From contig NZ_QFFK01000001.1 of assembly GCF_003149455.1 (NCBI RefSeq), positions 625,935-689,934 of the forward strand: a stretch of 64,000 bases of DNA, in the 5' to 3' direction. This DNA is from Chitinophaga deserti (GTDB lineage: Bacteria > Bacteroidota > Bacteroidia > Chitinophagales > Chitinophagaceae). How positions within the stretch are numbered: the first letter of the stretch is position 1; each line of letters opens with the position of its first letter. Both the position numbers and the translations under genes were made by a program. The notes under the pieces are model-generated. The model was not told the DNA's origin. It searched no databases and saw nothing but the letters and a program-made list of their open reading frames with translations. Shown here piece after piece: positions 5,854-31,149 of the stretch.

Positions 5854-7227
5854 TTATAAACCGTATTTATCAACAAGATAGATCAATGCCCCCATGCCGA
5901 TGGCACCCATTTCCAGTTCCCGCTTATTCACGGATTCAAATACATCGGATGCGGCATGATGAATATCAAAATAACGCTGTGAGTCAGGAGAAAGTTCAGC
6001 CATAGGGATGCCGAACGCACGGCCCAACGGTGTGATATCCACTCCGGAACCAACTTCATCGAAGTCATACAAGCCATATGGAATCATTAATGGTGCCCAG
6101 CTCTTCACTTTTGCACGCTGCGCATCCGTCATTTCCATGATAAAGCCACGCGGAGTGAAACCACCGGCGTCGCTCTCCAGTGCGAATAGGTGCTTTTCGT
6201 TATTCGTTTTTGCCAGCTCTGCATATTTGGCACCACCGCGTACACCGTTCTCTTCGTTTGCGAAAAGTACTACGCGCAGGGTCCGTTTTGGGCGGAGGCC
6301 CATGGTTTTAAACGCTCTCAGTATTTCAACGCTCTGCACCACACCGGCGCCATCGTCATGGGCACCTTCGCAGTTATCCCACGAATCGAGATGCGCACCT
6401 ACCGTGATGTACTCATCCGGAAACTCGCTTCCGCGCAGTTCGCCAATCACGTTATGGCCAATGGTATCGGGCAGCATCTGGCAGGTGGTGCGGAGGAAAA
6501 CCTGCATAGACGGGTCGTTCACGATCCGCTTGCTCAGCCGCCCGGCATCTTTCAGGCCGATGGCTACGGCAGCAATCTTCGGGAAAGAATCGTTGTAACG
6601 GGTGCTGCCGGTATGCGGATGATTATCCATGCTATGGCTCATAGATCGTACAATGATGGCCAGTGCGCCGTATTTAGCTGCCCGGCTGGGCCCCTGACTG
6701 CGGAATTTCACCGCATCGCCATAGCTATGAAAGGTTTTAATGAATTTCGGGTTGAAGGGATAATTGTAAAACACGATCTTCCCTTTCACTTCGCTCTTCC
6801 GGGCTTCCAGTTCCTCGAAAGAGCTTACTTCCAGTACAGGTGCGGTAACACCTTTGCTGCCAGTACCAACGGAATTGCCCAGTGCAATGATATTCAGCGG
6901 CGGTACAAAATCGCGGCGCCGGCTAATAATCTTTGCCTGTTCCTTTTCGCCACGCACCCAATGCGGCACCATGCATTCCTGTGTAAATACCTTATCTGCC
7001 CCTGCCGCTTTTAACACCTCAGCGCCCCACTTTTCTGCTTTCACCATTTGCGGGGAGCCGGCCAGCCGGCCACCGATCTGTTTGGTGAGTACACGTAAAT
7101 TTTCGTAAGCGGTGCTGCGGGTCAGCACTTCATCTGCCATCCGGCGGATGGTCAGCGAGTCGGACTCCTGGGCCCATGCGGTTTGTACCGTAAGGCAGGC
7201 CAGGACTGCTAAAATTGGCTTCATCAT
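5854..7227 (-). CDS. Secreted M28 family zinc metallopeptidase
   Basis: A 457-residue exported aminopeptidase or carboxypeptidase-like enzyme. Residues 1-19 form a signal peptide ending AWAQ. A protease-associated insert covers about residues 110-250. The M28 domain follows with likely metal ligands in GAHLDSWDNCEGAHDDGAG (His279, Asp291), ANEENG (Glu325/Glu326), ESDAGGF (Asp353) and DIHHAASD (His423/424). All the expected ligands are present, so it should be active on peptide N-termini in the periplasm or outside the cell. The closest class is plasma glutamate carboxypeptidase-like M28. It is divergent from bshA across an 80-base gap. Confidence 0.92.
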   Translation of the reverse strand: MMKPILAVLACLTVQTAWAQESDSLTIRRMADEVLTRSTAYENLRVLTKQIGGRLAGSPQMVKAEKWGAEVLKAAGADKVFTQECMVPHWVRGEKEQAKIISRRRDFVPPLNIIALGNSVGTGSKGVTAPVLEVSSFEELEARKSEVKGKIVFYNYPFNPKFIKTFHSYGDAVKFRSQGPSRAAKYGALAIIVRSMSHSMDNHPHTGSTRYNDSFPKIAAVAIGLKDAGRLSKRIVNDPSMQVFLRTTCQMLPDTIGHNVIGELRGSEFPDEYITVGAHLDSWDNCEGAHDDGAGVVQSVEILRAFKTMGLRPKRTLRVVLFANEENGVRGGAKYAELAKTNNEKHLFALESDAGGFTPRGFIMEMTDAQRAKVKSWAPLMIPYGLYDFDEVGSGVDITPLGRAFGIPMAELSPDSQRYFDIHHAASDVFESVNKRELEMGAIGMGALIYLVDKYGL

Positions 7228-7275
7228 GATAAGATCCGGATTTTCGGCTTTAAAGCTAACTAATTTTAAAATACT

Positions 7276-7283
7276 TACCTTAG
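7276..7283 (+). promoter_or_regulatory. Candidate -7 element for bshA
   Basis: TACCTTAG, the same 8-mer as the -7 of the promoter at 510-540, lies 24 bases before the bshA start. No good TTTG was found 17-20 bases upstream, so this is tentative. Confidence 0.35.
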
Positions 7284-7307
7284 CAACTCATTAAATCCAC
7301 TTCTCGG

Positions 7308-8447
7308 ATGCGCATTGGAATTGTATGCTACCCAACTTATGGCGGTAGCGGCGTATTGGCGACGGAACTGGGCAAGGCCCTGGCCGACAAAGGTCATCTG
7401 GTACATTTCATCACTTACCAGCAACCCGTCAGACTGAATGCCTTCCACGCCAATATTTATTATCACGAAGTTCAGGTTCCCACATATCCGCTGTTCGACT
7501 TTCCTCCCTATGAAAGTGCGCTCAGCAGTACGATGGTAGACGTGATCCTCAATCAGAAACTCGACCTTCTTCACGTACACTACGCCATTCCACACGCTTC
7601 TACCGCGTATATGGCACAGCAGATCGTGGCAAAGCAGGGCCGTCATATCCCGTTCATCACCACGCTTCATGGTACGGATATTACGCTGGTAGGGAAAGAC
7701 AAGACGTACGCTCCCGTAGTCACTTTCTCCATCAATGAATCCGATGCTATTACGGCGGTATCCAACAACCTGCGGGACGAAACTTATAAATCGTTCCCTA
7801 TTGAAAAGGATATCTCGGTGATCTACAACTTTGTGGATACGGCACGCTTCAAGCGCCGCGAGCTTCCGCATTTCCGCCAGGCTATTGCACCTAACGGAGA
7901 AAAGATCCTCCTGCATGTGTCTAACTTCCGGAAAGTGAAGCGCGTGCCGGATGTAGTGAAGGTTTTCCGCCAGGTACGTGATGTGATGCCTGCCAAGCTT
8001 TTGCTTGTGGGCGACGGGCCCGACCGGCCTATGATCGAATGCATGTGCCGCGAAATGGGCCTGTGCGACGATATCCGGTTCGTGGGTAAACAGGAGCAGC
8101 TGGAAGATGTGATGTCTATCTCCGACCTGTTCCTCCTCCCGTCTGAATACGAAAGCTTCGGTCTTGCAGCACTGGAAGCTATGGCCAGCCAGGTTCCCGT
8201 ACTATCGTCTAATGCAGGCGGCCTTCCTGAAATCAATATTGATGGTGTTACCGGATACAGCAGTCCTGTTGGCGATGTTGACCAGATGGCTTCCCATGCC
8301 ATTACCATCCTGCAGGATGAAAAGCTGCTTGCCACACTCCGTAAAGGAGCGCTTGAGCAGGCACTCCGCTTCCATATCGATAATATCATTCCGCAATACG
8401 AAGCCCTGTACGATACCGTGCTTCAACAGGCAGCAGTACGCATCTGA
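7308..8447 (+). CDS. bshA: N-acetyl-alpha-D-glucosaminyl L-malate synthase BshA
   Basis: A 379-residue GT4 glycosyltransferase. It joins GlcNAc from UDP-GlcNAc to L-malate, the first step of bacillithiol, a low-molecular-weight thiol. BshA-specific features include the start RIGIVCYPTYGGSGVLATEL, the block HVHYAIPHA, TTLHGTDITLVG, and the C-terminal nucleotide-sugar motif LPSEYESFGLAALEAMA with GGLPEIN. Length and start agree with the family. bshB and bshC are not in the window. A strong hairpin ends the gene. Confidence 0.95.
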   Translation: MRIGIVCYPTYGGSGVLATELGKALADKGHLVHFITYQQPVRLNAFHANIYYHEVQVPTYPLFDFPPYESALSSTMVDVILNQKLDLLHVHYAIPHASTAYMAQQIVAKQGRHIPFITTLHGTDITLVGKDKTYAPVVTFSINESDAITAVSNNLRDETYKSFPIEKDISVIYNFVDTARFKRRELPHFRQAIAPNGEKILLHVSNFRKVKRVPDVVKVFRQVRDVMPAKLLLVGDGPDRPMIECMCREMGLCDDIRFVGKQEQLEDVMSISDLFLLPSEYESFGLAALEAMASQVPVLSSNAGGLPEINIDGVTGYSSPVGDVDQMASHAITILQDEKLLATLRKGALEQALRFHIDNIIPQYEALYDTVLQQAAVRI

Positions 8448-18504: not shown

Positions 18505-20055
18505 ATGCATAGATTAACCTCCTTATCCTTGATTGTGGGCGCTGGCGTGATAATGTCCATGTCTGCCTGCAGCAAGAACGGCGGCGGGCTGTTCGGCAAG
18601 AAGAAAGAATCTTCTTCTGCTACAGGCTGGGCGTATAACGACCCCAAAATGGGTGGTTTCTCCGTTGCCAAGAGCAAGGACCAGTTCACCGGTCCGGGCC
18701 TTGTGTTCGTTCAGGGCGGCACGTTCGCCATGGGCGCCACGGAACAAGATGTGATGGGCGACTGGAACAATATTCCCCGCCGTATCACGGTTTCTTCATT
18801 CTATATCGACGAGAATGAGGTTTCCAACATTAATTACCGCGAATACCTTTTCTGGCTGAACCGTGTATACGGGGAATCCTTCCCGGACGTATACCGCGGC
18901 GCTTTGCCCGACTCCCTCGTATGGCGCAGTGAGCTGGCTTATAACGAGCCGCTGGTGGAGTACTACTTCCGCCACCCTGCTTACAACGATTATCCGGTAG
19001 TAGGTGTTTCCTGGAAACAAGCCACCGATTACGCTAAATGGCGCTCCAACCGTGTAAACGAAAAACTGCTCATCGACGCCGGCCTGCTTTCCCAGGCAGA
19101 CATCATGAACCAGGCAGACGACAACACGTTTGATTCCAAAGCCTACCTGGCCGGCCTTTACGAAGGCACTCCGGGCAAGATGTCTAAAAGCGCCAAGAAG
19201 CAATTCTCTAATGCCGACGGATCTCCCCGCGGCGCTCAGTTCGAAGATGGTATCATGCTGCCTAACTACCGCCTCCCCACAGAAGCGGAATGGGAATACG
19301 CAGCACTCGGATATATCGGTCAGAACCCCAACCCTTCCAAGAAAGAAGGTAAACGCGGGGAAGAGCTGATCCTCAACAAACAGATTTATTCCTGGGGCAC
19401 CAATAACAGCGGTCTCCGCGATATCCGCCGCGGTAACTGGCAGGGCCAGTTCCTGGCGAACTTCAAACGCGGATCGGGTGACAACATGGGTATGGCCGGT
19501 GGTCTTAACGACCGGGCTTCCATTCCTGCTCCCGTTCGCTCCTTCTTCCCCAACAACTTCGGTGTATATAACATGTCCGGTAACGTGAGTGAGTGGGTGA
19601 ATGACGTTTACAGACCGCTGACTACCATAGACGGTGACGACTTCAACTACTTCCGCGGTAACAAATTCCAGACTGTATACCAGAATAGTGATAAGGAATT
19701 CGAGAAAGACAGCCTGGGTGTACTGAAGATGCGTGATGTAACCGACGAAGAGTCTGCCAGCCGCCTCAACTACCAGAAAGGTGACGTAATCAACTACCTT
19801 GATGGTGACTCCCTTTCACTGGTTGAATATGGTTACGGTGTAACTACCCTGATCAACGATAAATCCCGTGTGATCAAAGGTGGTAGCTGGAACGACCGTG
19901 CATACTGGCTCTCTCCCGGCTCACGCCGCTACATGCAGGAAGAAATGGCTACCAATACAGTAGGCTTCCGTTGTGCGATGGACCGTGTAGGCAGCCCCGA
20001 AGGCAACAAGTTTAAAACGGGTCAGGCTTTCCGCGCACAGCGCCAGAAACGCTAA
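18505..20055 (+). CDS. gldJ: Gliding motility lipoprotein GldJ
   Basis: A 516-residue lipoprotein with a formylglycine-generating-enzyme (SUMF1-like) fold. The lipobox MSMSAC puts the lipid on Cys22. The block GTFAMGATEQDVMGDWNNIP, the stretch RLPTEAEWEYAALG (about residues 255-268), NMSGNVSEWVNDVY and KGGSWNDRAYW are standard for the fold. GldJ and GldK share it; GldJ is chosen because of the TGWAYNDPKMGGF N-terminal region and its place divergent from porU and porV, as in other gliding Bacteroidota. GldJ stabilises GldK and the type IX secretion apparatus. It is a single-gene unit with its own terminator. Confidence 0.92.
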   Translation: MHRLTSLSLIVGAGVIMSMSACSKNGGGLFGKKKESSSATGWAYNDPKMGGFSVAKSKDQFTGPGLVFVQGGTFAMGATEQDVMGDWNNIPRRITVSSFYIDENEVSNINYREYLFWLNRVYGESFPDVYRGALPDSLVWRSELAYNEPLVEYYFRHPAYNDYPVVGVSWKQATDYAKWRSNRVNEKLLIDAGLLSQADIMNQADDNTFDSKAYLAGLYEGTPGKMSKSAKKQFSNADGSPRGAQFEDGIMLPNYRLPTEAEWEYAALGYIGQNPNPSKKEGKRGEELILNKQIYSWGTNNSGLRDIRRGNWQGQFLANFKRGSGDNMGMAGGLNDRASIPAPVRSFFPNNFGVYNMSGNVSEWVNDVYRPLTTIDGDDFNYFRGNKFQTVYQNSDKEFEKDSLGVLKMRDVTDEESASRLNYQKGDVINYLDGDSLSLVEYGYGVTTLINDKSRVIKGGSWNDRAYWLSPGSRRYMQEEMATNTVGFRCAMDRVGSPEGNKFKTGQAFRAQRQKR

Positions 20056-20227: not shown

Positions 20228-21592
20228 TTAGCGTTTTTTAGCTTTAGCCTTGGGAGCTGGTTTTCTTTTAGGTGTACCCCATCCGGCAGGCCTGGGCTCG
20301 GAAGCGCTCTTCTTAACAGCGGGTTTTGCTTTAGCGGCAGCTTTCCTGGCTACCGGTTTTGCTTTCACCTTTGCCTTTGCCTTAGGTGCCGGCTTAGCCT
20401 TTACTGCAGCTTTAGCTTTAGCCTTGGGAGCGGGTTTAGCTTTTGCTGCCACTTTAGCCTTTGCCTTAGGTGCCGGCTTAGCCTTTACTGCGGCTTTCGC
20501 TTTTCCTTTTATAGCTGGTTTTGCTTTAACAGCTGCTTTTTTAGCTACTGGTTTCACTTTAACGGCTGCTTTTTTAGCTGCCGGTTTTGCTTTAACAGCG
20601 GCTTTCTTAGCAGCGGGCTTCGCTTTCACAGCAGCCTTTTTAGCCACCGGTTTCGCTTTAGCGGCTACTTTCTTAGCTACAGGTTTAGCTTTAGCGGCTG
20701 GTTTCGTTTTAGCAGCAGCTTTTTTAGCTACAGGCTTGGCTTTAACAGCAGCTTTTTTAGCAGCGGGCTTTGCTTTGGCAGCAGCCTTCTTAGCAGCAGG
20801 AGCGGCTTTGGCGGCAGCTTTCTTAGCAACAGGTGCAGCCTTCACAGCAGCTTTTTTGGCAGCAGCGGGCTTAGCCTTGGTTGCGGCCTTCGCTTTGGGA
20901 GCGGGCTTTGCTTTAACGGCGGGCTTCTTTGCGGCAGGGGCTGCTACGGGTTCTGCTTTCTTCTCAGCAGGAGCCGCAGCTTTTTTCTTAACCACTTTCC
21001 TTGCGGGAGCGGGAGCTGCAGGAGCAGGCTCAGCGGTTTCCGTTGCGGCGGCAGGTGCAGCCACTTCAGCAGGAGCCGGAGCAGGTTCTTCCTTCTCAGC
21101 GGGCTTCACATCTTCCCAGCCATCGGTATTCCCTTCCCACAGTGCAATAATCTCGCGGGCATGGTCTCCGGTGTCGGGCTTTTCGATTACGTTGGCAAGG
21201 ATGCCGTTTTCATCGATGAGGAATGTGGTGCGGTGGGTTCCGTCGTAAGTACGGCCCATAAATGTCTTCTCTCCCCAAACGCCATAGGCATTCAGGATTT
21301 CGTGGCTGGTATCCACGAGAATGGGGAACGGCAGGTCGTACTTGTCGCTAAACTTCTTATGGCTTTTTTCGTCATCCTCACTTACACCGATCACCGCATA
21401 GCCTCTGTTCAGAAGCTGTGTGTGATGATCACGAAGATTGCAGGCCTGGGTTGTGCAGCCTGGCGTCATGTCGTGGGGATAAAAATAGAGGATGACTTTC
21501 TTTCCTCTGAAATCGGCCAGCGATATGGTATTACCATGCTGGTCCACGGCGGAAAAGTCGGGGGCGCTTGCCCCAGGTTGCAGATGCGTCAT
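20228..21592 (-). CDS. Bcp-type peroxiredoxin with a long histone-H1-like tail
   Basis: 454 residues, about three times the usual Bcp length. Residues 1-153 are a complete thiol peroxidase that reduces peroxides through thioredoxin. The peroxidatic Cys46 is in PHDMTPGCTTQACN, with Cys51 as probable resolving Cys, and the fold continues through YGVWGEKTFMG and TTFLIDENG. Residues about 160-195 are a Glu/Pro/Ala linker. Residues about 196-454 consist almost entirely of Lys, Ala, Pro and Val in repeats such as KPVAKKAAVKA and KPAPKAKA, like H1, AlgP or PhaF tails. DNA or polyanion binding is inferred. It starts 7 bases after the M23 peptidase gene and is probably co-transcribed. Confidence 0.93.
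   Translation of the reverse strand: MTHLQPGASAPDFSAVDQHGNTISLADFRGKKVILYFYPHDMTPGCTTQACNLRDHHTQLLNRGYAVIGVSEDDEKSHKKFSDKYDLPFPILVDTSHEILNAYGVWGEKTFMGRTYDGTHRTTFLIDENGILANVIEKPDTGDHAREIIALWEGNTDGWEDVKPAEKEEPAPAPAEVAAPAAATETAEPAPAAPAPARKVVKKKAAAPAEKKAEPVAAPAAKKPAVKAKPAPKAKAATKAKPAAAKKAAVKAAPVAKKAAAKAAPAAKKAAAKAKPAAKKAAVKAKPVAKKAAAKTKPAAKAKPVAKKVAAKAKPVAKKAAVKAKPAAKKAAVKAKPAAKKAAVKVKPVAKKAAVKAKPAIKGKAKAAVKAKPAPKAKAKVAAKAKPAPKAKAKAAVKAKPAPKAKAKVKAKPVARKAAAKAKPAVKKSASEPRPAGWGTPKRKPAPKAKAKKR
20290..20990 (-). repeat. Low-complexity coding repeats for the Lys/Ala/Pro tail
   Basis: Imperfect units of about 33 bases encode KP-x-AKKAA-x-KA peptides and change to shorter PKAKAK units near the 3' end. 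Codons vary between units, so the tail has diverged since the units duplicated. The region is likely to vary in length between strains and to assemble poorly. Confidence 0.8.
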
Positions 21593-21599
21593 GGTTTAA

Positions 21600-23297
21600 C
21601 TAGCGTTTAAACGTCAATGTATATGTGGATGAGTTGTTCGCGATGTCCGTCACGGTGAGCGTAAGGGTATGCGTCCCGGGAGGGCAATGCTTATCAAAAT
21701 TATAAGAAACTACGTTACTTTTTCGCGAAAAGCGTAACCATTTTCCATCCAGTTCCGCACGGTAGGATTTTATCCCGCTCCCGTCGCTCATACTGAATGC
21801 AATACGGCCTGCCCCGCCAAGATTTGCGCCCTGTTTAATTCCCCCAAGCGGCGTGATTTTAGGTGCTGTGGTATCTGCCAGCAGTTGAAAATCTCCCAGA
21901 TCCCGCGAGGTACCGCGGTACCAGCCGTCTTCTTCTGCCGTAACCGCCATTACACTTTCCCCAAATCCCTGCCTGTGCAGCACCAGCCTGTCGCGCAGAT
22001 GTGCCGGAACGGGCCTCGATGGCTTAATACGGAGGTTGAAACCCGTATGCAGCGGTACCAGTGCGGAATGCAGCCTGAAGATATTGGAATACCCGCCGGC
22101 AGAAGCGATCTCAGAATACCGGAAACAGATCTGGTCGTACAGCAGCCCTTCATCCAGACTAAACTCCACCTGGTTGTTCTCGAATATATTCATGGATTCA
22201 GGGAACATCCTGTTGGCGCAGGCCGCTTCTGCAGCCTTACTGCCGCTTTGCTGCAGCGTGAGCTTTACATCAGATTTGTTACCGTATGCGTCCGTTACCC
22301 GGAGAGTTACAGGGTGAGGCTGCCCGTCAGACAGGTCGATCGTACCATCGCCTTCCACGTCGTGATAAATGCCCAGCTGATTCCCCGGGAGGGCAAATAG
22401 CAGTTGCACATACGGGCCGCCGCCTTTTTTCATTTTATAGTCGATGTGCGCGTTGAGGTACCGCGTTTCGTCGTATCCGATATTATCCAGCTGGAAGCCC
22501 ATATCTACCGCCCCGTCGCGGATGAGCATGGCTTCGTAGATGCCATTGGGGTTGGCAGAATTGCTCTGGCGGTCGAGGGCGCTGATGCCCAGGCTTACTT
22601 TATCGGTAGCTACCTGAACGAGGGGTTTAGCGGCTACAAAACCACCTTCCTTCGTACGTTTTACGGGTACTACCACCGGTGTTTGTTCAAAAATGCTGCG
22701 GTTGCGGTCGTACACCACCACGCGGGAAATCTCCGGGTCGCGGGTATCGGGGATATTGAAACCGAAAAGCATCCCGTTCAGGGGCTTTTCCGTTTGTGTA
22801 TCGCGGATCTCGAAGTGGAGGTGCGGACCGGCAGAGCCGCCAGTATTACCGCTCCAGGCTATGAAATCGCCCTTTTTAACCGGGAAAAGATTAGCGGGGA
22901 TATCCAGGCTCACAGCCCATGATTCCTGCTCGTATTGCTTCCGTTCGAGGTATTCCTCGAGCAGGGGGGTAAACTTATTCAGGTGGGCGTATACGGTGGT
23001 ATATCCGTTGGGGTGGGTGATGTAAAGCACATTTCCGAAACCGGTGTGCGAAACGCCCACACGGCTCACATAGCCCTCGGCAGCCGCGTGTACGGGAAGA
23101 TTCTCGCGCTGTTGCGTCTTTAAATCCAGCCCGGAATGGAAGTGATTGGGCCGTAATTCACCGAAATTACCGGCCAGCTCCATGGGAATATTCAACGGGT
23201 TTCTGAAATAGCCTTTCGGGTAATGCTTCTCCGGCAGCGACTGCGCCTGCACAAGCTGCGGGAGCAATAGCAAAAGTGCGATCGATCTTTTCATCAT
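21600..23297 (-). CDS. Exported M23 family metallopeptidase
   Basis: About 565 residues. The start at 23297 (ATG-ATG) gives the signal peptide MMKRSIALLLLLPQLVQAQ; the longer frame adds 25 poorly fitting residues. The M23 domain is near the N-terminus and has an intact zinc site: HFHSGLDL, then YAHLNKF, then HLHFEIRD. A cross-linked peptidoglycan endopeptidase acting in the periplasm is expected. The C-terminal 350 residues are beta-sandwich-like (for example IKSYRAELDGKWL and HTLTLTVTDIANNSS) and may bind the envelope. This contrasts with the degenerate LytM protein at 8520-9962. It is followed 7 bases later by the peroxiredoxin gene. Confidence 0.9.
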   Translation of the reverse strand: MMKRSIALLLLLPQLVQAQSLPEKHYPKGYFRNPLNIPMELAGNFGELRPNHFHSGLDLKTQQRENLPVHAAAEGYVSRVGVSHTGFGNVLYITHPNGYTTVYAHLNKFTPLLEEYLERKQYEQESWAVSLDIPANLFPVKKGDFIAWSGNTGGSAGPHLHFEIRDTQTEKPLNGMLFGFNIPDTRDPEISRVVVYDRNRSIFEQTPVVVPVKRTKEGGFVAAKPLVQVATDKVSLGISALDRQSNSANPNGIYEAMLIRDGAVDMGFQLDNIGYDETRYLNAHIDYKMKKGGGPYVQLLFALPGNQLGIYHDVEGDGTIDLSDGQPHPVTLRVTDAYGNKSDVKLTLQQSGSKAAEAACANRMFPESMNIFENNQVEFSLDEGLLYDQICFRYSEIASAGGYSNIFRLHSALVPLHTGFNLRIKPSRPVPAHLRDRLVLHRQGFGESVMAVTAEEDGWYRGTSRDLGDFQLLADTTAPKITPLGGIKQGANLGGAGRIAFSMSDGSGIKSYRAELDGKWLRFSRKSNVVSYNFDKHCPPGTHTLTLTVTDIANNSSTYTLTFKR

Positions 23298-23418
23298 GCA
23301 AATGTAATGGTTAAAGAAGTGACAGACAGCCATCTTCCATGATTGACAGCGAATTAACATATTTTTTGTCAACAGCTCTGCACTTTTCCTTAATTTCCAT
23401 TCACCAAAACATCCGCAT

Positions 23419-24781: not shown

Positions 24782-25585
24782 TTATAATCCCTTCCGTATC
24801 TCATCTATCAGCCCTACGAACTTCGGATCGGTCCGGATATCGGGCTTCCAGGCGAGGCCCATTTCGCAGAGGTCGTACTCCTTCCGGATGGTAGCCCCCA
24901 CTTTACCTTCTTCCGTCCCCATCAGCCACACTGTGTCCGACACGGCTGCGGCATTCTCAATATCGTGGCTCACCACAATGAGGGTATTATCTTCATGCAA
25001 AGTGGAAACTTTCAGCAGCAGTTCGATCACCTTATCGATCATCAGGATATCAAGCCCGGAAAAAGGCTCGTCTAACAGGATAAACCGGTTGCCGGTAAGT
25101 ACCTGCTGGATGATGCTCACGCGCTGGCGCTGGCCGCCGCTTAACTGAGCCGGATATTTCTTCAGATGGTCGATCAGTTCAAACGTGTTCGCATAATCTT
25201 CAATAATGCGTTTCTTCTCCGCCTCACTCAGTGCCACTCCGGAATGATCGAGCCCAATCCGGAGGTTCTGGTAAACGGTGCGGTGCTGGAACAGGATGTA
25301 GTTCTGGGGCACAATACCTACCTGACCTGCTTTCACGGGATGCTGGTCGGCCCCTATCCGTACTGTTCCCTGTGTAGGAGGCACGAGCCCTGACAGCACT
25401 TTAAACAACTGGGTTTTACCCAGCCCGCTGCGCCCTATCAGCGCAACTACCTGCCCCTGATGCACGCCTTCACGGTGTACATTCCGTATCTGGAAATTGA
25501 TGTCGCGGAGAATGACCTTTTCACCATACTGCAAATGAATGTTCTCCGCACTCAGCAGTACATGGCTTTTTGTATATGCGTTCAT
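24782..25585 (-). CDS. ABC transporter ATP-binding protein (TauB/SsuB-like)
   Basis: 267 residues with a complete nucleotide-binding domain: Walker A GRSGLGKT (residues 51-58), signature LSGGQ (148-152), Walker B ILLDEP (169-174) and switch His207 in VVSHD. The class resembles nitrate/taurine/sulfonate importers. The start ATG overlaps the permease stop by one base, so the two are translationally coupled. It is the last gene of the five-gene operon 24782-29916. The C-terminal 40 residues, which mention no known regulatory domain, extend past the standard domain. Confidence 0.92.
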   Translation of the reverse strand: MNAYTKSHVLLSAENIHLQYGEKVILRDINFQIRNVHREGVHQGQVVALIGRSGLGKTQLFKVLSGLVPPTQGTVRIGADQHPVKAGQVGIVPQNYILFQHRTVYQNLRIGLDHSGVALSEAEKKRIIEDYANTFELIDHLKKYPAQLSGGQRQRVSIIQQVLTGNRFILLDEPFSGLDILMIDKVIELLLKVSTLHEDNTLIVVSHDIENAAAVSDTVWLMGTEEGKVGATIRKEYDLCEMGLAWKPDIRTDPKFVGLIDEIRKGL

Positions 25586-26367
25586 TATCGTGTTTGCAAT
25601 TTGGTGTAAGGAAATAACCAGTGGCGGAACTGGCCCAGGATGTAATCGAAGGCCATACCCAGTATGAAAATGATGACGAGCAAACCGAACACCACGTCCA
25701 GCTGCACATATTTATTGGCTTTTATGAGCATCACGCCCAGCCCCCCTTCACTCATGCTAAGGCCTTCCACAGATGTGATCATGAGCCAGGCGATGGCAAA
25801 GTTCTGACGCATCACTTCAAACACCTGATCCAGCCGGCCGATGATAATCACCTCCCACAGGGTCTTCCAGCTGTTCATGCGCAGGGTGGTACACAGTTCA
25901 TATTCCTGCTTGTTAATCCCTTCGATCACCGATAACAGCGAGGTCACGAAGAAAGGAACGATACCGAATATGAGCAGGCTGATCTTCAGCTGATGCCCGT
26001 TTTGCGTAAGCAGCGTAAACAGGAAGATGAGCCCCGTGAGCGTGAGGTACCGGCATTTGACTATAAACCTTGCTATGGGCTGAAAAAACGGCACGATCGA
26101 CAGATAACTGATCACCAGCGCGATGAGGATGGAAATAACCATCCCTTTCACGGTAAGCGTAAGACTGGCGAAAAGGTTATCGATAAAGTCGGGCATGGTA
26201 AATATCCGTCCTATAGCACCCACCACTTTATCCGGCGTAGGTATGAGCCCGCCGCCCGACAGCTGCCAGGCAATGAGTGCCACCGCTGCTTCCGCAACAA
26301 TCAGCAACAGCATCGTGCGCGGGTTAATGGTGCGCAGTGGCTCGAATATGGATTTGATTTTATTCAA
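25585..26367 (-). CDS. ABC transporter permease (TauC/SsuC-like)
   Basis: About 260 residues with roughly six membrane segments and the cytoplasmic EAA-like loop around ELCTTLRMNSWKTLWEV. The longest frame opens at a TTG at 26430, but its first 21 codons lie in an intergenic hairpin. The TTG at 26367, preceded by GGAAA and giving MNKIKSIFEPLRTI, is a better start; no ATG lies before residue 40 of the longest frame. It forms the membrane channel for the ATPase encoded immediately downstream. Substrate unknown. Confidence 0.85.
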   Translation of the reverse strand: MNKIKSIFEPLRTINPRTMLLLIVAEAAVALIAWQLSGGGLIPTPDKVVGAIGRIFTMPDFIDNLFASLTLTVKGMVISILIALVISYLSIVPFFQPIARFIVKCRYLTLTGLIFLFTLLTQNGHQLKISLLIFGIVPFFVTSLLSVIEGINKQEYELCTTLRMNSWKTLWEVIIIGRLDQVFEVMRQNFAIAWLMITSVEGLSMSEGGLGVMLIKANKYVQLDVVFGLLVIIFILGMAFDYILGQFRHWLFPYTKLQTR

Positions 26368-26393
26368 TGGTTTCCGGTTTAAGGGATAAGAAA

Positions 26394-26423
26394 ATCCCCG
26401 GAATGGCAAGCCACCCCGGGGAT
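26394..26423 (-). terminator. Intercistronic hairpin in the OmpA-ABC operon
   Basis: Stem ATCCCCGG (26394-26401) with CCGGGGAT (26416-26423), an inner TGGC/GCCA stem, and TTTTCTT after it on the minus strand. It lies between the substrate-binding gene and the permease gene. It may act as a partial terminator or a 3' stabiliser, giving more binding protein than transporter. Confidence 0.6.
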
Positions 26424-26430
26424 ACAGCAA

Positions 26431-28197
26431 TTATTTACCCAGTACGATCTGAACACGGCGGTTCTTCGCACGGCCTTCGGCAGTAGCATTGCTCGCTTCA
26501 GGACGGGAAGCACCGTAGCCTTTAGACTCCAGGCGGGCAGCGGAAAGCCCTTTACCCTGCAGGTAAGCCACTACGGAAGCAGCACGCTCGTTAGAAAGCT
26601 TCACGTTGGCTTCGTCATTACCCACATTGTCGGTATGGCCATATACGCCCAGCTTCAGCCCTTCAGCCACCACGGCACTCTTCAGGATATCGTCCAGCAC
26701 AGCATAGGATTCAGCACGGATCACAGCGCTGCCGGTCTCAAACTGCACCTGTACGGATTTGGAAGAAACCTCGGAAGTAATCGTATCGGCATACTGCACC
26801 TTAATGGCTGCACCTGTCAGCAGTTCGGGATGGTTGCTTACCACGCTGGCGAGGAACGATTTGTCGATCACCTTGTTGTATACCGGGTAGCTGGGTACCA
26901 GCTCAGGATACATTTTCACGAGGATGTCGCCGAAAGTACCGTATACTACCTTGTAGCGGTCCAGCTTATCGTCGCCCAGGCCAAACATATTGGCAGCGTC
27001 TGCCAGGTTGTAGGCCATGGAACCACCGAGGTGGAGGGTAGTACCCTGCGCATCTTTTTCTTCCACGCCGTTGTAATACTTCAGCCAGTAAGCACCGTCC
27101 TGCTCATTGTACACTTTGGCAGATACGTTAGCAGCGAACGCTTTGGCATCGTTGAAAGAGCGTACCTGGTCGCCGGCTTGAGCAAGCGCCATGATGAGGT
27201 TCTCTATATCCGTACGGTGGTCGTTGGCGAACTTCTTGATGGTGATCGTGATGTTCGGCATCTGGGCAGCATACTCACGGGTGGTAGCGATATTGATCAG
27301 GCCGCCTTTCTTCTGGGCGATATTCACGTCGCCGGGCGTCCAGGTGGCAACACCGTCTACCCCTACTGTTGTGTCTTTCGCAACCTTCTTACCATTTTCC
27401 ACGAACTTGCGCGTTTCGGCATAACCTGCGATGTACTTGTTGGCAGCATCCAGGAAGTCGTTGGCAGCAATGAGGTTGATGGCGTTACGGTCGAAGGAAG
27501 TTTCGTCCGGGTTCACACGGAGACCGTTATCACCGGCCCATTTCACGAGGATGTTCATGTCCCCGTCGCGGAGCACACAGGCAACGGTTTTACCGAGAGC
27601 CGCTTTAGGATTGAGCTTCCATTCTGCGGGGCCCATCAGTTTATCTTCACCATAGCTTTTACCCATGGAGTAAAAAGCGACAGGCTGATATTCGGGACCC
27701 AGCGGCTCCAGTTCTTTCGACAGTGCGGCAAAGAACATCGGCATACCATCGCCCATGAAAGATGCGAACACACCGGGCGTGTTGGGATCTGATTTGTAAT
27801 CCTGTGCAAACTTCACCATATCAGCGATGGATTTGTTGCAATCGTCCTGACGCACTACCTCCACCTGAAGTGAAGCTTTATCGATCAGGGAGTTCTTCGT
27901 TGTTTTAGGGCCGCCGTTGGCATACATGAGCGGGAATTGCGAGTTCCAGGCCATGATCTTCCAGATGATGCGGGTACCGCCGTTGGCAGATTCATCTGTG
28001 GAAGGCAGCTCCAGCTTGGCTGCGTTACCGCTCAGCGAAGCCTCTGGCGCATCGGGGAGACTTACTTTACCGATTTCTGTGGAAGCCTTTGCTTCCTGCG
28101 GGCGCTTGTCCCACCATAATACTTTACCGGCGTACAGTCCGCCGAGGAGGATAAGGATACCTACTACTTTACCACCAGGTTTAACTTTAATTGCCAT
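26431..28197 (-). CDS. Membrane-anchored substrate-binding protein fused to an OmpA peptidoglycan-binding domain
   Basis: 588 residues. Residues about 10-28 (GKVVGILILLGGLYAGKVLW) are an uncleaved membrane anchor. Residues about 75-460 resemble periplasmic binding proteins of the phosphate/nitrate type, with MPMFFAALSKELEP and VACVLRDGDMNILVKWAGDN. Residues 481-588 are a full OmpA C-terminal domain: FETGSAVI, YGHTDNVGND, LSNERAASVVAYL and NRRVQIVL, including the Asp and Arg regions that hold diaminopimelate. The protein would bind a solute while tied to both the inner membrane and the cell wall. It is third of five genes, upstream of the permease. The solute cannot be told from sequence. Confidence 0.88.
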   Translation of the reverse strand: MAIKVKPGGKVVGILILLGGLYAGKVLWWDKRPQEAKASTEIGKVSLPDAPEASLSGNAAKLELPSTDESANGGTRIIWKIMAWNSQFPLMYANGGPKTTKNSLIDKASLQVEVVRQDDCNKSIADMVKFAQDYKSDPNTPGVFASFMGDGMPMFFAALSKELEPLGPEYQPVAFYSMGKSYGEDKLMGPAEWKLNPKAALGKTVACVLRDGDMNILVKWAGDNGLRVNPDETSFDRNAINLIAANDFLDAANKYIAGYAETRKFVENGKKVAKDTTVGVDGVATWTPGDVNIAQKKGGLINIATTREYAAQMPNITITIKKFANDHRTDIENLIMALAQAGDQVRSFNDAKAFAANVSAKVYNEQDGAYWLKYYNGVEEKDAQGTTLHLGGSMAYNLADAANMFGLGDDKLDRYKVVYGTFGDILVKMYPELVPSYPVYNKVIDKSFLASVVSNHPELLTGAAIKVQYADTITSEVSSKSVQVQFETGSAVIRAESYAVLDDILKSAVVAEGLKLGVYGHTDNVGNDEANVKLSNERAASVVAYLQGKGLSAARLESKGYGASRPEASNATAEGRAKNRRVQIVLGK

Positions 28198-28260
28198 AGT
28201 TGGGATTGTTTTAATTTTTGATGTTTGTTCGGAATATGAGATTTGACTTGGGTTATGCGG

Positions 28261-29247
28261 TTAGCTTAACAGATTATTGTAGCTGTCGTTAGGCAGCGTG
28301 CCGGGCGTACGCGGCGTAGTGGAAGGCTCCCACTTCGATACGTCGAGGCGGAATTCCTTGTCCGGATCAAAAGATTCCAGCATCTGGAGGCCCTGCAGCT
28401 CATAGGTAGCGTTATCCAGGTCAATGGAGCGCATAAAATCTGTAGAATAGTTGATGGCCTTTTTCATGCTCGAAAGTTTTGTGGCGATGTCTTCCTTCAG
28501 GTATTCCATCGACTGTTCCACCATCAGCTTCTTTTCCGGATCACCGTTGAAGATCTTCAGGGCAGAGGTCAGCGCCTTGTTGCCGGACGATACGGATTTA
28601 TACAGATCCTTTTTCAGCTCAAGTTCGTTACGCGCATCTTCGATCATGTACCCGCTATTCTTATGCACTTTGGTGAGGTAGTCACCGATGCGGGCCAGGT
28701 TATCGCGGATGGGGGTCAGCTGCTGGATGTATTCCTTGATCCGCGCAATGTGGCGGGTGGCATTACCCAGCTCGGGAATCATGTTGTTGGTCTGTGCGGC
28801 TTTGGCGCGGCTCATGAGCTGTGCCATATCTTTCTCTTTCTCACCGATCTTCAGGTCGATGCGCTCTTTCTGCGCGTCCACGTCTATAGACTGTTTATAC
28901 AGTTTCTCCCGCTGTTCTTCCATATCGCCGATATAGTCTTCCGCGATAATGAAGGGGTCGAGTTCGATTACCACACCTACGAGTTTCTTCATCAGCCATT
29001 CATAGAAATAGAAGAAGCTGAGGCGGAGTTTGCGGTGGGTAACGCAATAGAGGAACACACCGAGTACTACCAGCGCAATACCGAAGTTGATCGTGCTCCA
29101 TACCACGGCGGCAAGGATAGGGATGATGAAATATCCTGCGGCGATGAGGAGGCCGAGGCCTATCATGATGCCAAATTTGCCGCCTGGCCGTTGCCAGTAT
29201 GATTTTAATTTTTCATTGCCCGCGGCGGGGAAGATGTTTGTTTCCAT
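28261..29247 (-). CDS. Membrane protein with long cytoplasmic-type coiled coil
   Basis: 328 residues, no recognised family. Two adjacent membrane segments lie near residues 25-45 (FGIMIGLGLLIAAGYFIIPI) and 48-68. Residues about 105-260 are a charged coiled coil (EDYIGDMEEQREKLYKQSID and following). The C-terminus is polar and Pro/Thr-rich. It lies 63 bases upstream of the OmpA fusion and 6 bases downstream of another coiled-coil gene. Structural partnership with the ABC proteins is inferred from the operon alone. Confidence 0.75.
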   Translation of the reverse strand: METNIFPAAGNEKLKSYWQRPGGKFGIMIGLGLLIAAGYFIIPILAAVVWSTINFGIALVVLGVFLYCVTHRKLRLSFFYFYEWLMKKLVGVVIELDPFIIAEDYIGDMEEQREKLYKQSIDVDAQKERIDLKIGEKEKDMAQLMSRAKAAQTNNMIPELGNATRHIARIKEYIQQLTPIRDNLARIGDYLTKVHKNSGYMIEDARNELELKKDLYKSVSSGNKALTSALKIFNGDPEKKLMVEQSMEYLKEDIATKLSSMKKAINYSTDFMRSIDLDNATYELQGLQMLESFDPDKEFRLDVSKWEPSTTPRTPGTLPNDSYNNLLS

Positions 29248-29253
29248 AATCGG

Positions 29254-29916
29254 TTAGAGGGATGTTTGGATTTTTTGAATGTCTGTTTGAATCTTGGTGA
29301 TCATGGCCTGGCAGGCAATATCGTACCCCTGCCTGCTGGCAGCGATCTTCTGTTCCTGTTCGGCCACCTGTGCCTGTAGTGCTTTCATACCAGTCTGAGC
29401 TTTCGTGATTTCTGCTGAGAGGCGTTGGATTTCGCTGGAATGGTCGGCGATCTGCTTTTCCATGTCCGTTATTTCCTTTTTGCGGCCTTCCACTTCGCGG
29501 GATGCTTTGTCTTCGGCAGCTTTCAGGAATTCATTCCTGTCCTTTTCTACCATGGCCTGGTAAAGCGCGGCAGTTTCGAGCAGCTTTTCACGTGACAGGC
29601 CCTGGATGCTGAGCGTGGCGAATACAGCAGCGATACGCGCTTTTTCGTCAGGCACGTGGGCTTCCAGCGTTTCCATCATGCGCCAGAACTCGAAGTAATC
29701 CGGACCGGGCAGGTTAGATGACTCGAATAGGCTTGTGAAGTGCTTTTCAAACTTATCCAGCTCCTCATCCGATATACCGGCGGCAGCCTGTTTCGGACTG
29801 GACAGGGGGAATTTTTGGGCAAGTGCATCCCGTGCGGGAGAGCTGCCCGTTTGCAAAGGTTCATTGGGTTCAAATTCCACGAAAAGACCCAATGCCTTCT
29901 TTAGAAAGTTCGACAT
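29254..29916 (-). CDS. Coiled-coil protein, first gene of the OmpA-ABC operon
   Basis: 220 residues, no signal peptide and no membrane segment, so probably cytoplasmic. Residues about 1-110 look globular and helical (SDEELDKFEKHFTSLFESS, YFEFWRMMETLEAHVPDEKA). Residues about 115-218 are a regular coiled coil (REVEGRKKEITDMEKQIADH and following). The stop is 6 bases before the next start. Function unknown; the ATG at 29916 follows a 330-base regulatory gap. Confidence 0.75.
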   Translation of the reverse strand: MSNFLKKALGLFVEFEPNEPLQTGSSPARDALAQKFPLSSPKQAAAGISDEELDKFEKHFTSLFESSNLPGPDYFEFWRMMETLEAHVPDEKARIAAVFATLSIQGLSREKLLETAALYQAMVEKDRNEFLKAAEDKASREVEGRKKEITDMEKQIADHSSEIQRLSAEITKAQTGMKALQAQVAEQEQKIAASRQGYDIACQAMITKIQTDIQKIQTSL

Positions 29917-30246: not shown

Positions 30247-31149
30247 ATGTCAATCAACGTATCGCAGCTGCTGAAGCAGTATGGAGAGCAAAAAGCGGTG
30301 GACGGTATATCTTTCAGCCTGCAAAAGGGTGAGATCGTCGGCTTCCTGGGGCCTAACGGCGCAGGAAAATCCACCACCATGAAGATTATTACGGGATATC
30401 TGCCGCCAACGGGGGGCAGCGCATCTGTATGCGGGTATGACGTGGCCACTGCTCCGCTGGAAGTACGCCGCCGTGTGGGGTACCTCCCGGAAGCCAATCC
30501 TTTGTATCCTGACATGTACATCCGTGAGTTCCTCGAGTTTGCCGCCGGCATGCATCAAATGGGTAAAGGCACATCCGCCCGGATCGATGAAATGATTGCC
30601 CGTACAGGCCTCACTCCCGAACGTCATAAAAAGATCGGCACCCTCTCCAAAGGCTATAAGCAACGGGTAGGACTTGCACAGGCCCTCCTGCATAACCCGG
30701 AAGTACTCATCCTCGACGAGCCCACCTCCGGCCTCGATCCCAATCAGCTGGCCGATATCCGCCAACTGATACGGGAACTGGGAGAAAACAAGACGGTGAT
30801 GCTCTCCACCCACATTATGCAGGAAGTGGAAGCCCTCTGCAGCCGCGCGATCATTATCAATAAAGGGCATATAATTGCCGACAGCGCTATCAGCACCCTC
30901 CGGCAGGGAGCCTCCGGGTTTATACAGGTAGCCTTTGCGGAAGAAACCACCCCCGCAGAGCTTGAAAACCTCCCCGGCGTTCAGAAAGTAACCCCGGCGG
31001 AAGGGAATACCTGGCGCCTTTACACGACAGAACCCGAAACAGTAAGGAAAAACCTCCTGCAATTCGCTTTGATAAATAACAGGAACATCCTTTCTTTGCA
31101 GAGCAATTCACTGTCGCTCGAAGACGTGTTCAGGGAACTGACAAACTAG
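30247..31149 (+). CDS. gldA: Gliding motility ABC transporter ATPase GldA
   Basis: 300 residues. An ABC-2 type ATPase with Walker A GPNGAGKST (residues 35-43), signature LSKGY (133-137), Walker B VLILDEP (153-159) and His189 in LSTHI. The C-terminal 80 residues form the regulatory domain seen in GldA-like proteins. GldA with GldF and GldG is needed for gliding in Flavobacterium. gldF and gldG are not adjacent here, as is often the case for gldA. A generic ABC-2 ATPase is the alternative reading. Confidence 0.83.
   Translation: MSINVSQLLKQYGEQKAVDGISFSLQKGEIVGFLGPNGAGKSTTMKIITGYLPPTGGSASVCGYDVATAPLEVRRRVGYLPEANPLYPDMYIREFLEFAAGMHQMGKGTSARIDEMIARTGLTPERHKKIGTLSKGYKQRVGLAQALLHNPEVLILDEPTSGLDPNQLADIRQLIRELGENKTVMLSTHIMQEVEALCSRAIIINKGHIIADSAISTLRQGASGFIQVAFAEETTPAELENLPGVQKVTPAEGNTWRLYTTEPETVRKNLLQFALINNRNILSLQSNSLSLEDVFRELTN

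Follow-up and report, generated by a model that had tools for sequence, protein, structure and literature searches.

What function could bring together, in a single operon, an ATP-binding cassette (ABC) transporter, a binding protein that is predicted to be held at one end by the inner membrane and at the other by the cell wall, and two coiled-coil proteins? The question is raised by five open reading frames (ORFs) of Chitinophaga deserti, g1 to g5, which lie in the order g1-g2-g3-g4-g5 on the minus strand, from 29916 to 24782, of the 64,000-nt stretch of contig NZ_QFFK01000001.1 that was analysed (hereafter the window; Table 1). The ORFs are separated by 6 (g1/g2), 63 (g2/g3) and 63 (g3/g4) bases, and g4 and g5 overlap by one base. 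The start of g4 is a chosen TTG (26367); the ORF as called mechanically starts at 26430. All five ORFs, their order and their spacing on the minus strand were verified, as a previous sequence-only reading had described them.

The answer that we prefer, with about even confidence, is that the operon encodes one trans-envelope module for membrane maintenance, made of an ABC transporter, its tethered binding subunit and a scaffold of g1 and g2.

Conservation of the five-gene set

The grouping of the genes is not due to chance and is kept within Bacteroidota. A genome collection was scanned with a profile built from only the binding domain of g3, which gave 305 confirmed relatives, and the best 80 were examined. 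The complete set, in the same order and on the same strand, is present in 64 of these 80 loci, which supports the idea of a single module. Contig ends interrupt 13 of the remaining 16, which leaves three real departures (L091, L114 and L144). At the first, only g2-g3 are present, as an additional incomplete copy; the records of the organism also contain a complete set (L100).

The other two, L114 and L144, carry g3-g5 without adjoining g1-g2. They are the loci that would be expected if the coiled-coil genes were unrelated passengers beside an ABC operon. However, both genomes keep g2 elsewhere, with g1 beside it (L173, L174 and L162): the two halves are separated and both are retained, which again supports a joint function, and the order is kept in the large majority of the loci.

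The counts of co-occurrence point the same way. In a sample of the genus, g3 was found in 22 of 60 genomes and g2, by single-sequence search, in 21, all of them among the 22. In a sample of the family, g3 was found in 15 of 117 genomes and g2, by the same search, in 11, all among the 15. The five genomes in which g3 alone was detected (one from the genus and four from the family) in fact carry all five genes; g2 was missed there because it is too divergent for a single-sequence search. In the phylum sample, g3 occurs in 8 of 395 genomes, every one of which carries the full set of five; the OmpA domain swamped the first search at this level, and the phylum counts use the binding domain alone. 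The unit is therefore coherent but accessory, and the passenger explanation, largely refuted by these counts, is hardly credible. The sequence-only reading had proposed that the two coiled-coil proteins are part of the system, and this withstood the comparison of the conservation of their genes beside the ABC genes, within Bacteroidota.

The taxon labels of the 80 loci are Bacteroidota in 78 cases, Chlorobiota in one (L084) and Williamsia in one (L114). The best 120 of the 689, 2297 and 2269 matches of the protein searches are all close relatives, and a record of Chitinophaga pinensis is 99% identical to the window over the g3 binding domain. This domain has no tblastn match at E<=0.001 in 72,556 plasmid records.

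Two types of the operon in Chitinophaga were compared, with seven loci each. The identity between types is 65.5-67% for g3, 51-54% for g5, 32-37% for g1 and 30-33% for g2, compared to 81-99% for g2 within the type of the window. By these identities, the cytoplasmic partners have changed, or have been exchanged, faster than the periplasmic partner. One genome (G271) has two complete five-gene copies of different types (L180 and L181). In another locus (L101:7346-8849), two ORFs unlike any of the five genes sit between g2 and g3.

The coiled-coil proteins g2 and g1

The protein encoded by g2 is probably a relative of PspA/Vipp1, in the ESCRT-III superfamily, with an N-terminal membrane segment. 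This assignment is supported but not proven, and lies below threshold by sequence. PspA_IM30 (PF04012) is the only Pfam match of the window protein at E<=0.1 (19.5 bits vs a cut-off of 33.9). It is also the most frequent Pfam family among 15 aligned g2 members, seven of which match it at E<=0.1 (4.2e-8 at best), and none of three reversed control sequences does; among a further seven g2 proteins, two match at E<=0.01. A Foldseek search with the AlphaFold2 (AF2) model of g2 returned Vipp1 chains for all of the top nine matches (probability 0.99-1.00), with E. coli PspA at rank 13. The likeness to PspA/IM30/Vipp1 would lie in a predicted helical hairpin that follows a short helix and a '[D/N]P' turn.

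Unlike the PF04012 proteins, g2 carries about 70 additional residues at its N-terminus, among them a membrane segment. Several results weigh against the assignment to this family, and with it against the membrane-maintenance module. Every g2 protein whose PF04012 score was examined fell below the curated cut-off, including the best relative (33.5 vs 33.9 bits), and the divergent types (L173, L174, L175, L122 and L081) have no PspA_IM30 match at E<=0.01. The alignment of g2 by hhalign with four PspA sequences (E. coli and three Chitinophaga, a very shallow alignment) has a probability of 9%, and a sequence search of the PDB matched GrpE (0.008) but not PspA. The AF2 model is weak (predicted local distance difference test, pLDDT, of 65.5), the Foldseek E-values are 0.0057 or worse, and a VIA structure comparison places PspA level with unrelated helical hairpins.

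PF04012 is found above its cut-off in 3 of the 60 genus genomes, 2 of which also carry g2, which is a further point on the negative side. It was considered that g2 could replace the canonical PspA. This was rejected: g2 is not simply a replacement, because canonical PspA and the operon co-exist in these two of the three Chitinophaga genomes with canonical PspA. The genome of the window has no PF04012 match at E<=0.001.

The N-terminal hydrophobic segment of g2 forms one long helix in the model and is possibly a transmembrane hairpin. The hydropathy profile of the window protein has a single peak, like those of L047 and L157, and there are two peaks in L104, L048 and L176.

As to g1, it seems from its sequence to belong to no known family, since the profile libraries gave only generic coiled-coil matches, below the cut-offs among those shown. 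The previous description of g1 and g2 as two coiled-coil proteins of no recognised family holds for g1 and was wrong, or at least incomplete, for g2, given its sub-threshold Pfam match to PspA/IM30 and its best structural matches to Vipp1. The homologues of g1 adjoin g2 in the relatives, at 18-64% identity. Its first 14 residues have a hydrophobic moment of 0.47 (shuffle p 0.042), and the N-terminus is amphipathic with p<=0.05 in 64 of the 82 homologues measured (87 in total, 5 of them unmeasurable); this character is absent in L048 and L158, and L047 has a p of 0.096. Comparisons by hhalign gave a probability of 2% for g1 against the same, very shallow, PspA alignment, and of 28% for g1 against g2 over 54 coiled-coil columns.

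The general association of these genes is already in print. Ravi et al. 2024 (PMC11237479) describe PspA/Snf7-TM genes, together with an AAA+ ATPase gene, whose operons also encode an ABC ATPase, a permease and a PBPB-OmpA protein, the example given being OGG56892.1. Their section 18 takes operons of this type to connect the remodelling of membranes with the transport of solutes, which is similar to the interpretation preferred here, and section 15 notes that a third gene for a coiled-coil protein accompanies PspA and Snf7 in some neighbourhoods of Bacteroidetes (PMC11237479). Since that association has been described, the operon of the window is a variant of a described type: like those of Ravi et al., it unites an ABC ATPase, a permease, a fusion of solute- and peptidoglycan-binding domains and a probably PspA/Snf7-like gene with a membrane segment, but it lacks the AAA+ gene and has g1 as an additional conserved partner, which the published sentence on these operons (PMC11237479) does not name. 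Among the open-licence PMC papers listed by the searches, no experimental study of the operon was found.

The binding protein with its predicted tether, and the ABC pair

The C-terminal part of g3 is an OmpA-like domain (PF00691, 75.6 bits vs a cut-off of 27.2), which superposes on TagL with a root-mean-square deviation of 1.4 over 112 residues. An Asp/Arg pair, which we take to be the wall-binding residues, is present in 89 of 89 g3 homologues (with His or Tyr before it; with His only in 86). The protein shares this domain with the wall anchors TagL/TssL, MotB and Pal; unlike in these, it is joined to an ABC binding protein. The binding domain alone has no Pfam match at E<=0.5 and no sequence match in the PDB. 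Its model has the type II fold of the TauA/SsuA/CmpA/NrtA group, which is in favour of the module proposed above. PstS is absent from the 50 structural matches listed for g3 and from the NCBIfam rows shown (25 of 38); within these listings there is no sign of the known phosphate protein, which would have made the other genes incidental in the sequence-only reading. At the N-terminus, the putative anchor helix has a hydropathy of 1.78 over 19 residues, and the lipobox pattern was found in none of the 89 homologues. A polypeptide in three parts (inner-membrane anchor, solute-binding domain, wall-binding domain) had been proposed, and this is borne out by the predicted anchor and domains.

g4 is a permease (PF00528, 31.1 bits vs a cut-off of 26.4) whose nearest NCBIfam models, SaoP, TauC and SsuC, are all far below their cut-offs, and g5 is an ABC ATPase (PF00005, 98.1 bits vs 25). 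The motifs of g5 were counted in the 81 operon proteins of at least 240 residues, with a loose pattern for Walker B. Walker A is present in 81 of them, LSGGQ in 79, Walker B in 80 and the H-loop in 79, which supports the module; the missing Walker B motif and one of the two missing H-loops are due to a mis-read ORF (L132). The 25 g5 sequence variants examined carry residues of the form 'IxRxxxxQGQ' directly before Walker A, which are presumably extra relative to the usual ABC ATPases.

Thus, g3, g4 and g5 resemble the TauABC/SsuABC/NrtABC/CmpABC importers in the fold of the binding protein, the permease and the class of the ATPase. They differ from these in a binding domain that has no sequence match in the PDB or Pfam, is predicted to be anchored in the membrane and carries an OmpA domain. 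In the NCBIfam rows shown, none of the equivalog cut-offs of TauB, TauC, SsuC and NtrCD is reached, and all scores are far below them; the resemblance is therefore to a class, and not membership of a named system.

In the membrane-maintenance module, a transporter of the TauABC/NrtABC type (g4-g5) would carry g3 as its binding subunit. The helix of g3 would hold the inner membrane and its OmpA domain would clamp the peptidoglycan, and this double tether would fix the complex where the distance between membrane and wall has a set value. On the cytoplasmic face of the membrane, the anchored, PspA/Vipp1-like g2 may polymerise, and g1, a peripheral coiled-coil protein whose N-terminus is amphipathic, may control or nucleate it. 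The occupancy of g3, or the strain on it, read through the cycle of the ABC ATPase, would then place or switch the g1/g2 scaffold and so stabilise the membrane. The gene set, its conservation within Bacteroidota and its sequence families are established and the fold and anchor of g3 are predicted, while any physical complex, the polymerisation, the coupling, the direction of transport and the ligand are inferred.

The main rival is an ordinary importer of the TauT/NitT type, whose tether only keeps the binding protein near the permease and in which g1 and g2 stabilise or position the complex. All three of its components, from the binding domain to the permease and the ATPase, are similar to those of the taurine/nitrate/bicarbonate class, the ATPase motifs are in place, and the patchy distribution is that expected of an accessory nutrient system, which also counts against the module. 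On the other hand, partners that resemble membrane-remodelling proteins are nearly always kept, no recurrent metabolic neighbour was seen in the loci inspected by eye (neighbours were not counted), and some relatives have, as extra neighbours, genes for an AAA+ ATPase or for a two-component system. We consider a simple importer possible, if on the unlikely side.

The operon is a compact and recurrent unit of culturable Bacteroidota in which a putative PspA relative is tied genetically to an ABC ATPase and to the peptidoglycan, and it can be tested gene by gene. It would also exemplify a binding protein that is held in place physically at both ends, by membrane and wall.

Table 1. Positions of the operon genes and of their predicted segments in the window
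Feature	Position	Strand	Length and basis
g1, coiled-coil protein, first gene of the operon	29254..29916	-	220 aa; no known family
g1, first 14 residues, predicted to form an amphipathic helix that may bind the membrane	29875..29916	-	hydrophobic moment
g2, putative membrane-anchored PspA/Vipp1-like protein	28261..29247	-	328 aa; sub-threshold PF04012, AF2 model, Foldseek
g2, N-terminal hydrophobic segment, residues ~23-70	29038..29181	-	AF2 model and hydropathy
g2, putative PspA-like helical hairpin, residues ~97-234	28546..28959	-	
g3, solute-binding protein fused to OmpA-like peptidoglycan-binding domain	26431..28197	-	588 aa; profile and model
g3, predicted inner-membrane anchor helix, residues ~11-29, no lipobox	28111..28167	-	hydropathy
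g3, predicted solute-binding domain, residues ~71-463, TauA/SsuA/CmpA/NrtA fold	26809..27987	-	model
g3, OmpA-like peptidoglycan-binding domain, residues 486-580	26458..26742	-	PF00691 profile
g4, ABC permease (BPD_transp_1)	25585..26367	-	260 aa from TTG; PF00528
g5, ABC ATPase	24782..25585	-	267 aa; PF00005; Walker A, LSGGQ, Walker B and H-loop present

Neighbouring genes

An AAA+ ATPase (PF00004 with AAA_lid_6) is encoded downstream of g5 in all three genomes of one genus (L048, L158 and L159); in L159, a gene of the phytanoyl-CoA dioxygenase family (PhyH, 6640-7371) lies between the two. The operon of the window has no such ATPase, a query with the AAA+ protein finds no match in the 80 loci L066-L145 and L173-L182, whichever strand is read, and the genome of the window contains only weak partial matches to the protein. 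In operons that lack AAA+, the ABC ATPase itself might drive both the assembly and the disassembly of a PspA/ESCRT-III-like polymer anchored in the membrane, with the solute- and wall-tethered subunit as its external gate. This is a long shot; if true, the system would be a counterpart of ESCRT-III with Vps4 that senses the wall and is powered by an ABC ATPase.

In another genus, a response regulator of the sigma-54 type directly follows g5 in three of three genomes (L047:2055-3419, L156:12506-13870 and L157:12126-13493). A HAMP-PAS histidine kinase stands behind it in L156 and L157, and none was seen in the stretch of L047 that was examined. A sigma-54 regulator beside the operon is reminiscent of the control of the psp genes by PspF. 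AAA+ or sigma-54/kinase neighbours are as in membrane-stress systems, and were therefore counted in favour of the membrane-maintenance module.

The same regulators, with the kinase in two of the three genomes, would also suit a sensor that transports nothing. The ABC pair would then relay a signal, as in FtsEX, g3 would gauge the distance or tension between membrane and wall, and g1/g2 would be the output. The predicted two-ended tether of g3, with no lipobox and an invariant Asp/Arg pair, is consistent with this idea, but the full type II binding fold and the BPD_transp_1 permease are well conserved and a pure relay would not need them. A sensor of this kind seems improbable to us. As to the mechanical device suggested by the sequence-only reading, the results speak neither for nor against it.

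A role in defence was also considered and rejected: PADLOC gives only generic matches to ABC, OmpA (ZorB/MotB) and coiled-coil proteins, and none for g2 and g4.

Divergent from g1, an ABC ATPase (PF00005 with a DrrA C-terminal domain; 30247-31149, plus strand) resembles DrrA/GldA. All seven compared loci of the type found in the window have an opposite-strand ABC ATPase upstream of g1. Beyond the other end of the operon, about 1.4 kb away with two genes between, a Peptidase_M23 protein (21600-23372, minus strand) possibly acts on the wall. It is followed by a peroxiredoxin (AhpC/TSA; 20228-21592, minus strand) with a tail of about 300 residues in lysine/alanine/proline-rich repeats, and by an FGE-sulfatase-domain protein (18505-20055, plus strand), which has a lipoprotein-like start and presumably resembles the gliding/type IX secretion protein GldK.

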